From the IMG/VR virus record IMGVR_UViG_3300017987_000309, positions 1 through 27,042 of that record: DNA of 27,042 nucleotides. One strand, written 5' to 3'. The notes under the pieces were generated by a model. It had not been told where the DNA came from, made no database searches, and saw nothing but the letters and a program-made list of their open reading frames with translations. Origin of the DNA: a virus. A program made the position numbers and the translations under genes. This document shows, piece by piece, positions 10,658 through 21,404 of the stretch; within the stretch, counting starts at the first letter, position 1; each line of letters begins with the position of its first letter.

Positions 10658-11098
10658 ATGAAAAAGATGATTCTAATGGGTTTAATTTCGATCTCACTAA
10701 ATGGTAAGACTAGTGAGATTAAGGTAGGTAAACTTAATAGGCTATGTAGTGCAGCTTGTAAGACATTAAAATTAGCCACTGTGCCTATTAAGTTTACATA
10801 CAATAACTCAGACAAGATTGTATCCGTAAAAACATTAAAATTTATAGCGATAGTAGGAGCTCCGTTTTTCTATTTTAATCCAGATATCCTACAAGAGTTG
10901 TCCAGATTAGGCGCAGATGGAGTTGTTAAGATGAACGGTTTAATAGCTAGGGGTATCCTTGAAGGGTTAATGAGTAATCCTGCGGCATTGGCCAGTTTAG
11001 CTGCACTATTGACTGCGCAATCCACTGCGACGTCGTTTATAAAAGGTTTCGGAGAAAAGATGGGTGGACTATTATTAACAATCTTTACATTGGGGTGA
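10658..11098 (+). CDS. Unknown hydrophobic, possibly membrane-associated protein
   Basis: 146 residues. The ATG follows a GGGGGG ribosome binding site, 22 nt after the stop of the ribbon-helix-helix gene. The N-terminus (MKKMILMGLISISLNG) looks like a weak signal or membrane anchor. Further hydrophobic stretches lie at about 59-72 (KFIAIVGAPFFYF) and about 97-146, the latter rich in Ala, Leu and Gly (NPAALASLAALLTAQS, GGLLLTIFTLG). The middle contains two Cys residues (30 and 34). It does not resemble P22 Ant or any toxin I recognise. A holin-like, superinfection-exclusion or regulator-controlled effector role are all possible. Its stop overlaps the GTGA preceding the next gene, indicating translational coupling. 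Confidence 0.7.
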   Translation: MKKMILMGLISISLNGKTSEIKVGKLNRLCSAACKTLKLATVPIKFTYNNSDKIVSVKTLKFIAIVGAPFFYFNPDILQELSRLGADGVVKMNGLIARGILEGLMSNPAALASLAALLTAQSTATSFIKGFGEKMGGLLLTIFTLG

Positions 11099-11100
11099 AC

Positions 11101-11337
11101 ATGAAAAAGATACTATTGTCATTAGTCTTATTGGGATCACTTTCTGGAATTAAAGCAGAAACTCCTGGAGTTAAAGACCTAAACAGAAAGCAACTGATCA
11201 ATCGAGTAATAGAACTCGAAAAACAGATACTTGAAGCCTTAGATGTTTTAGAATTAAAAATAATTAGAGAAAAAAACATCGTTCAAGGTATCGATGCTCA
11301 ATTAGCATCAGTATTTGACCAAAAAGAAGAAAAATAA
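11101..11337 (+). CDS. Small secreted coiled-coil protein
   Basis: 78 residues from the ATG at 11101, preferred over the in-frame GTG at 11095 because GGGGTGA then serves as ribosome binding site. Residues 1-19 form a clear signal peptide (KK, then LLSLVLLGSL, with a likely cut after GIKA). The mature part is a single charged helix with heptad-like leucines and isoleucines (LINRVIELEKQILEALDVLEL), so probably a periplasmic coiled coil. There is no lipobox Cys. Size and layout would suit a spanin-like or envelope-modifying protein following a membrane protein, but no family is recognised. A hairpin at 11341-11358 comes 3 nt after its stop. Confidence 0.75.
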   Translation: MKKILLSLVLLGSLSGIKAETPGVKDLNRKQLINRVIELEKQILEALDVLELKIIREKNIVQGIDAQLASVFDQKEEK

Positions 11338-20199: not shown

Positions 20200-21150
20200 T
20201 TAAGCTAATGTAGATTTAAGGTTAGCAATCCAAGCATCGTTTGTTATTGCGATACCCATTGACATCTTCCAACCAGCTGTTGAATTCAACTCTAGTGGCC
20301 CACCAGCTATTTTATAATCATGATAGATAAATTTAGCATTAGCGTTTTCAAGACCAACTGTAGTGTAAGCTTCCATACCACAAATAAATGTGTTATAGAC
20401 GTCTTCACCAAGACCAGAAGCATTAGCAGAGACAGAGCCCTTAGAAGACAACAAGAATCTTACCCTGTTAACCTTACCGACTTCAGCATTATCAATTAAT
20501 TTTTGACTTGAATACTGTTCTGTTGAAACCCAACCATTCATATTCTCTAATGTTGGAAGCAAGTCTGTGTGACCCAAACCTACATATGCATTAGGAACCG
20601 GAGATGTTCCAAATTTATTAGCAGCATCAATTGAATCTGCAACTGTTTTTGCATCATTTGACATTAAAGACTTAACAACGTCTTGAACATCGGTTAAAGC
20701 CATTTCTGTAGGAGCATCACCATTAACACCGCCAACAGAATTTATAACAAATGCAGTAGCCGATAAATAATCACGAATTAACTCATCTTCAGTAAATCTC
20801 ATGCTTCGACCTAAAAGACGAGCTCTTTCATTTAATACTGGAGATTGTGACGTTAAATCCACCTGATCATTAACCTCTACCCATTGACCATAAAAGCTAA
20901 GCTCTGCGTCAATATAAACAGAAGACATTGATGAATTAGGAGGTGTTACCCCTGTGTTACCTAATGGAACTTTTGCTACTGATAAATCATCATAACGTTC
21001 CATTCTTATCTTATCACCACTACGAGCAGCAAGATTCTTTTTCATAGCCAACTTAGTATGAATCAAATTTGGCTGTGCCATCGCTAATAATAAGCGATCA
21101 TAATAAATCTGTACTGGAGGAGGTAAAATACTTGTAGTTACTCTTGCCAT
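20200..21150 (-). CDS. Major capsid protein, N4-gp56-like
   Basis: 316 residues from the ATG at 21150 (MARVTTSILPPPVQIYYDRL), chosen because AAGGA sits 7 nt upstream; the frame continues 16 codons further to 21198 but without an RBS. The N-terminal pattern (PPPVQIYYDRLLLAMAQPNL followed by H.K.A.....AARSGDKIRMERY and YGQWVEVNDQVD) is that of the N4-gp56 family of major capsid proteins, which adopt the HK97 fold. The gene follows scaffold and is insulated from it by a terminator, a promoter and a structured leader of about 150 nt, so it can be expressed at a level different from its upstream neighbours. The family call is by pattern. Confidence 0.85.
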   Translation of the reverse strand: MARVTTSILPPPVQIYYDRLLLAMAQPNLIHTKLAMKKNLAARSGDKIRMERYDDLSVAKVPLGNTGVTPPNSSMSSVYIDAELSFYGQWVEVNDQVDLTSQSPVLNERARLLGRSMRFTEDELIRDYLSATAFVINSVGGVNGDAPTEMALTDVQDVVKSLMSNDAKTVADSIDAANKFGTSPVPNAYVGLGHTDLLPTLENMNGWVSTEQYSSQKLIDNAEVGKVNRVRFLLSSKGSVSANASGLGEDVYNTFICGMEAYTTVGLENANAKFIYHDYKIAGGPLELNSTAGWKMSMGIAITNDAWIANLKSTLA

Positions 21151-21187: not shown

Positions 21188-21302
21188 TTAAATCTCAAGT
21201 CGGACGATACTTGAACGCGCGAAAAGCGCTACAGTCCTAGGTTTGCGAGACCCATTTTCAGCAACGACTAGGCTTGCGAAACCACCTTCAACAACTTTAG
21301 TC
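21188..21302 (-). ncRNA. Structured leader RNA of the capsid gene (undescribed)
   Basis: The 5' leader expected from the promoter at 21338-21310 contains four stem-loops in about 110 nt. (1) GACUA/UAGUC (21302-21298 with 21270-21266) encloses GGUUU-CGC-AAGCC. (2) UGGGU-CUCGCAA-ACCUA. (3) GCGC-UUUUC-GCGC (21229-21217). (4) UCAAGU, 8-nt loop, ACUUGA (21214-21195). Stems 1 and 2 belong to tandem imperfect repeats and both expose a UCGCAA loop. The segment is visibly more GC-rich than its surroundings. A 38-codon open frame covers the same stretch (21304-21188) but has no RBS and atypical arginine codons, so RNA function is favoured. No known RNA family was recognised. Confidence 0.5.
21236..21295. 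repeat. Two tandem imperfect 30-bp repeats
   Basis: Copy A (21236-21265) and copy B (21267-21295) align with about 24 matches over 29 positions and one indel; both contain CTAGG(T/C)TTGCGA(G/A)ACC and CA(G/A)CAAC. The offset between copies is not a multiple of three, so they do not encode repeated amino acids in the overlapping open frame. Confidence 0.75.
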
Positions 21303-21308
21303 ATTAAA

Positions 21309-21338
21309 ACTATAACAAACATAAAACTATAATTGCAA
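21309..21338 (-). promoter_or_regulatory. Promoter of the capsid transcript
   Basis: On the minus strand TTGCAA (21338-21333), 17 bp, TTATAG (21315-21310), or with 18 bp TATAGT (21314-21309). It lies directly behind the terminator at 21346-21365 and upstream of the structured leader. The same -35 hexamer is present in the terminase promoter. Confidence 0.5.
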
Positions 21339-21341
21339 TAT

Positions 21342-21365
21342 AAAACCCCAGCCTTAAAGCTGGGG
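21342..21365 (-). terminator. Intrinsic terminator between scaffold and capsid genes
   Basis: On the minus strand CCCCAGC, a 6-nt loop and GCTGGGG form a 7-bp stem followed by UUUUAUAUUG. It lies 40 nt past the scaffold stop and ends the terminase-portal-scaffold transcript. Confidence 0.85.
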
Positions 21366-21404
21366 CAGGATAAACACTAAAGAAAGGAGACTGTTTAATG
21401 TTTT

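Follow-up and report, generated by a model that had tools for sequence, protein, structure and literature searches.

What does the structured sequence in front of the major capsid gene of an uncultured phage do? We examined this question in a 27,042 nt stretch of DNA (hereafter, the window), the 27 kb IMG/VR virus record IMGVR_UViG_3300017987_000309. The structural operon of this phage is on the minus strand and encodes a terminase, a P22-like portal, a scaffold-like protein and the capsid (phrog_1357), followed by tail genes. The capsid leader (21188-21302, minus strand) lies between a promoter-like site and the capsid ATG (Table 1). The first-pass annotation had described a terminator, a promoter and a capsid start around four stem-loops, two of them in tandem repeats, in a region of elevated GC content. 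All of these features are present. The tandem repeat reads GGUyUCGCAArCCUAG..., and the leader has a GC content of 49%, compared with 37.6% for the window and 14-18% for the immediate flanks. A strong terminator-like hairpin (19204-19184, minus strand; GGGGTCACAGTGACCCC followed by a T-run) was detected 3' of the gene that follows the capsid gene and, given this hairpin, the two genes may form a separate transcription unit.

Table 1. Features in and around the capsid leader of the window, listed in the direction of the capsid gene.
Feature	Position	Strand	Remarks
Intrinsic terminator-like hairpin	21345..21366	-	Splits capsid unit from upstream scaffold-like gene
Promoter-like site TTGCAA-N18-TATAGT with extended TG	21309..21338	-	-35/-10; presumed +1 near 21302
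Module 1 hairpin GGU-UUCGCAA-GCC	21271..21283	-	From sequence; upstream copy of tandem repeat
Module 2 pseudoknot 5' strand UUGC	21261..21264	-	Partner GCAA 21246-21243 in next loop; family-wide pseudoknot test
Module 2 hairpin GGGU-CUCGCAA-ACCU	21239..21253	-	All four pairs covary in 15 sequences
Module 3 pseudoknot 5' strand GGAC, then UGUA	21234..21237	-	GGAC/GUCC in 15/15 core sequences
Optional hairpin GCGC-UUUUC-GCGC in module 3 linker	21217..21229	-	From sequence; variable or absent in relatives
Module 3 hairpin UCAAGU-AUCGUCCG-ACUUGA	21195..21214	-	Loop GUCC 21205-21202 is pseudoknot 3' strand
CUUGAG, module 3 3' strand plus one base	21194..21199	-	Alternative partner of Shine-Dalgarno region
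CUCAAG, 3' strand of alternative helix	21159..21164	-	Overlaps Shine-Dalgarno AAGGA 21161-21157
Major capsid gene	20200..21150	-	phrog_1357 major head protein; Pfam PF25209; ATG at 21150

The four hairpins exist as proposed; they do not stand alone and are instead parts of pseudoknots (GGAC/GUCC and UUGC/GCAA). The annotation had also suggested that UAGUC could pair with either GACUA or GACU. These pairings are not kept in the nearest relatives, and the conserved alternative pairing is instead that of CUUGAG with CUCAAG, over the Shine-Dalgarno sequence. The folding energy of the leader is unremarkable compared with shuffled sequence (z from about 0 to +1), since the pairings that matter form pseudoknots, and we dropped such z-scores as uninformative about structure. 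A cmscan of the window and its relatives against Rfam 15, at the gathering score, gave zero leader matches, in agreement with the earlier statement that no known RNA family could be recognized.

Relatives of the capsid were gathered by protein similarity rather than RNA similarity. Most of the 82 non-identical leaders were obtained in this way, and all of the relatives are environmental contigs. The nearest leaders align in a core directly before the capsid gene, which comprises hairpin 1 (loop CUCGCAA), the sequence AGGACyGUA, an optional hairpin and hairpin 3, whose loop (nUCGUCCG) contains a GUCC complementary to GGAC. When viral contigs were scanned with the core pattern, nine matched, all nine directly before a capsid relative. 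Hairpin 1 covaries at each of its pairs across the 15 core sequences, all of which also retain GGAC/GUCC. A covariance model built from 13 relatives, with the window left out, recovered the leader of the window with a score of 57.5 bits (E = 3.8e-15), compared with 10.6 bits for the next best match in the window, and also picked up capsid leaders in other loci. The first-pass annotation had named the lack of stems or of compensatory changes in related phages as evidence against an undescribed, structured cis-regulatory leader. The relatives keep the stems, with many compensatory changes, which supports that reading at the level of sequence, one in which the leader would control capsid expression. 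The stable small RNA that it offered as another option is unsupported.

The recurring unit of these leaders is a module of ~22 nt. It opens with xxC(n)G-UA, which is connected by a short linker, in most cases of 2-5 nt and at times containing an additional hairpin, to a 3-6 bp hairpin with the loop YUCGyyA. The CGyy of the loop pairs back to the module's own 5' xxCG, forming a pseudoknot. Two to four modules per leader are the rule and up to five occur in tandem. In the window, modules 1 and 2 are divergent members that depart from the GUA consensus, and module 3 and the Shine-Dalgarno helix are typical of the family. A naive detector found 193 modules, compared with 72 (sd 7.6) in shuffled leaders; 12 of 131 leaders had no detected module. 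We evaluated the pseudoknot in two ways that did not select for complementarity, using permutations that leave the relatedness (shared descent) of the phages in place. In one, 128 of 178 unique modules pair, compared with 34.6 with permuted loops (maximum 49 in 2000 permutations), and in the other, which is anchor-based, 112 of 170 pair, with 31 expected (maximum 51 in 10000). For 28 gap-free modules, selected by nothing but their hairpin and GYA anchor, we obtained a covariation score of 0.785, compared with 0.238 for shuffled pairings (0 of 500) and 0.08-0.17 for slid ones. GC, AU, UA and CG are all found at the first pair of the pseudoknot, the GGAC/GUCC pairing typical of module 3 shows complementary exchanges in other modules, and even UCG changes in compensated form, to GGUG/CACC (L171), GAUG/CAUC (L140) and AAUG/CAUU (L131). 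Given these diverse, independent solutions, a chance origin of the pairing appears unlikely.

Crossing complementarity with compensatory exchanges also argues against a DNA element such as an operator repeat, and against a conserved gene for a short peptide, as does the density of modules on the antisense strand, which equals background. There is a 44-codon open frame in the window, and a conserved 38-codon protein had been raised earlier as a competing explanation. Relatives do not preserve this 38-44 codon ORF: 41 of the 82 leaders have a closed ORF of at least 30 codons, where composition predicts 32, and half of the core group has none. As the reading frame is not kept across leaders, we rejected the conserved peptide, and we consider a DNA or coding element highly improbable.

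The modules are concentrated before capsid genes. Within the 350 nt upstream of capsid starts we counted 153, compared with 36 in 419 kb of other sequence, a 62-fold difference by density. For strict modules, the density is 5.3 per kb in these 350 nt and 0.09 per kb in other sequence or on the antisense strand. In a gene-blind scan, we used three patterns that describe a pair of modules in tandem and contain no gene; these matched 101 loci, 91 of which have at least two modules according to the detector. At 87 of the 91, the modules are upstream of a major capsid gene on the same strand, mostly 44-133 nt away. The remaining loci are two truncated copies of known capsid leaders and two cases inside genes (L204 and L289). 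The two perfect modules of L289 (9433-9490) fall within an ORF of acidic, Ser/Asp-rich repeats and are probably a chance product of repeated codons. Overall, leader arrays precede the capsid genes of more than 100 related and unrelated phages.

Three of the 87 loci (L195, L215 and L224) have the array before a different major head protein, phrog_14242 (E 5.4e-22), with no similarity to the window capsid detectable by sequence. The contigs of L195 and L215 have GC contents of about 58-62%. As the array occurs before two capsid families, it follows the role of major capsid rather than one protein family, and this suggests a common signal or factor.

How could such an array act on the capsid gene? 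The single-strand fold of the window already shows the CUUGAG/CUCAAG helix over the Shine-Dalgarno sequence. In 39 leaders whose sole selection criteria were a CUU in the last hairpin and an AAG within the Shine-Dalgarno sequence, helix position 6, counted outward, is paired in 38, with 22 expected (maximum 31), and the pairs include GC, AU, UA, GU and UG. The outer helix cells of these leaders pair in 81% of cases, compared with 43-51% when slid. A helix score of at least 6 was reached in 45 of 118 leaders (15.5 expected, maximum 27), representing 34 distinct helices; about 60% of leaders have no Shine-Dalgarno helix of 6 or more. The phrog_14242 leaders form the same helix by unrelated letters, CCGUUGAG/CUCAACGG in L195 and L215 and CCUCG/CGAGG in L224. 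In another 14 leaders, the last module ends in CAACUC and is followed within 12 nt by (G)AGUUG, mostly then by U4-6. This terminator-like hairpin, which is conserved without covariation, stands in place of the Shine-Dalgarno helix and is only suggestive of an alternative platform.

Since they share a 3' strand, the last-module hairpin and the Shine-Dalgarno helix are mutually exclusive. In seven leaders, the buried state is better by 1-8 kcal/mol when pseudoknot energy is not counted; the two states are thus expected to be near balance, and a stable pseudoknot could tip it. Based on the modules, the pseudoknot pairing, the Shine-Dalgarno helix, the association with capsid genes and the position at the presumed +1, all established by comparison of sequences, we propose that this is probably a 5'-terminal, riboswitch-like cis-acting leader that switches capsid translation. 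Transcription from the promoter directly before the leader would give an mRNA whose 5' end is the tandem pseudoknot array. The last module would share its 3' strand (CUUGAG) with the helix that buries the Shine-Dalgarno sequence (CUCAAGGA). In the lineage of the window, the ribosome site would be free (ON) when the last pseudoknot is folded and buried (OFF) when it is lost, and a phage, host or chemical signal would shift the balance between the two.

The presumed position at +1 is based on a TATAAT-like box, which in 30 of 86 leaders is located 5-7 nt upstream of the first module, with a sharp peak at 6 nt (18 leaders). With the box at this distance, the array is expected to begin at +1 and thus to pair the 5' end itself. 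This is also what would be seen if the array were a 5'-terminal stabilizer that shields a highly expressed mRNA from 5'-end-dependent decay of the RppH/RNase E or RNase J type. The two to four modules per leader would then provide redundancy, and no other product is expected to be as abundant as the capsid. Neither the covarying Shine-Dalgarno helix nor the conservation of the UCG/GUA letters beyond pairing needs is explained by protection. We regard it as a serious rival, somewhat less than an even prospect, and one that is compatible with the switch.

An array immediately at the presumed +1 would likewise suit a nascent-RNA antiterminator that acts on RNA polymerase. In phage HK022, put consists of two stem-loops before the early operons, and is thus also a structured RNA that starts a phage transcript. 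The terminator-like site downstream of the capsid gene and the next gene also speaks for such activity. On the other hand, an antiterminator does not predict a Shine-Dalgarno helix, which put lacks, and the capsid unit, which has terminator-like sites at its borders, is short. We therefore consider antitermination improbable.

Another possibility is that a phage protein (capsid, scaffold or other) binds the modules and shuts translation off. The T4 protein gp32 acts in this way on a pseudoknot in its own leader (PMC3014915, PMC535899), and a 2010 review described this as possibly the sole viral pseudoknot in translational autoregulation (PMC3014915). As those accounts present the T4, T2 and RB69 gene 32 leaders, they resemble the capsid leader in having a pseudoknot tens of nt upstream of the start and an A+U-rich stretch to the ribosome site, and in targeting the mRNA of one abundant phage protein; in the capsid leader, comparison places the pseudoknot upstream of the ribosome site, at about 45 nt from the start, with an A+U-rich stretch between. 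The same accounts describe a single pseudoknot of other sequence rather than a tandem array, and their sections on gene 32 mention no covarying Shine-Dalgarno helix (PMC3014915, PMC535899). The gene 32 product is also an ssDNA-binding protein that binds the pseudoknot, whereas the gene regulated here would be that of the major capsid.

Some leaders do have an arrangement suited to repression. In the clade L048-L069, the capsid gene has no leader of its own and a module is found before the scaffold gene, about 700-800 nt before the capsid start in L048, L049, L055, L061 and L063. In L049-type members, the 3' strand of this hairpin is the Shine-Dalgarno sequence of the scaffold gene itself (GGCAGUAAAAUCCAUUCGCCAAGGA), so the folded state would be OFF there. 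In the window lineage, a protein that stabilizes the folded module would open the ribosome site, not close it. Two capsid families that show no detectable similarity in sequence are preceded by the same array, which also argues against repression, and particularly against a capsid that binds its own pseudoknot. Accordingly, the protein-binding site suggested in the first-pass annotation is weakened with regard to the capsid itself, and we consider repression by a phage protein unlikely, although more plausible than antitermination.

The switch that we favor can also be compared with known riboswitches. Small H-type pseudoknot riboswitches (preQ1, SAM-II, SAM/SAH and guanidine-III) combine a compact pseudoknot with mutually exclusive Shine-Dalgarno pairing, and the capsid leader is similar in both respects: it has a conserved structured domain with compensatory changes and a mutually exclusive expression platform, the Shine-Dalgarno helix, that covaries in a large subset. 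It differs in having no Rfam match and up to five tandem modules, and in its location before capsid rather than metabolic genes, a context that does not suggest a ligand. Tandem aptamers, such as the guanidine-II/mini-ykkC hairpins and the glycine riboswitch, also repeat near-identical small modules in one leader; in the capsid leader each loop pairs with its own 5' strand, and there is no Rfam match. The working principle would thus be nearest to those of the T4 gene 32 pseudoknot and the small pseudoknot riboswitches, and by the tests made the leader appears to belong to neither group. No description of capsid-leader pseudoknot arrays was found in the open-access literature, a scope that leaves aside most subscription journals and all preprints.

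The array was absent from the inspected isolates and sampled bacterial genomes. The RNA model had no match in 299 Pseudomonadota genomes, and a capsid profile gave nine distant matches in about 1190 bacterial genomes of three phyla, none with arrays. Named phages with the window capsid family share no more than 30% identity with it, and all seven inspected lack the leader. An exact 16-mer search with TTTCGCAAGCCTAGTC returned ten matches, nine of which are chance matches of 16-18 nt. A pattern scan of bacterial genomes gave 19 matches, none with flanking hairpins. Eleven of these are one repeat in a Zixiibacteriota MAG (QNAF01), where the same sequence (...AGGACAGTATGCGCGCTTGCG...AAGTGTCGTCCGAGACTCGCC) is located at the ends of 11 contigs (L075, L077-L079, L084-L086, L088, L089, L091 and L093); it is probably a dispersed repeat or an assembly feature.

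When examining the genomic context we noted that the capsid gene of the window is uninterrupted, unlike those of many relatives, which are split by insertions of ~0.2-1.3 kb. There are several distinct insertion sites, following residue ~93, 98-107, 122 and 144. Split genes occur in L003, L004, L006, L025/L036, L021/L038, L045, L054, L056, L061-L069 and others. One insertion (L006, 2499-2713) matches the group I intron model RF00028 at 51 bits, and at least three include LAGLIDADG-like ORFs in antisense orientation. The window also has two small plus-strand ORFs (10658-11337), apparently its sole genes on that strand. One begins with a signal-peptide-like sequence, and the two could be lysis genes.

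Phage assembly is determined by when, and how much, capsid is made and, to our knowledge, little is known about RNA-level control of the capsid genes of dsDNA phages. A bolder reading, which we hold only tentatively, is that the leaders represent a new class of phage sensor RNA, in which tandem, possibly cooperative pseudoknot aptamers would detect a signal of the host or of the infection stage and gate the production of capsid, and which is shared despite unrelated capsids. The combination of a widespread ~22 nt module and a ready-made Shine-Dalgarno switch offers a compact regulatory part and a system open to direct testing. The capsid leader looks like a candidate for a widespread, undescribed RNA switch for the most abundant protein of the virus.
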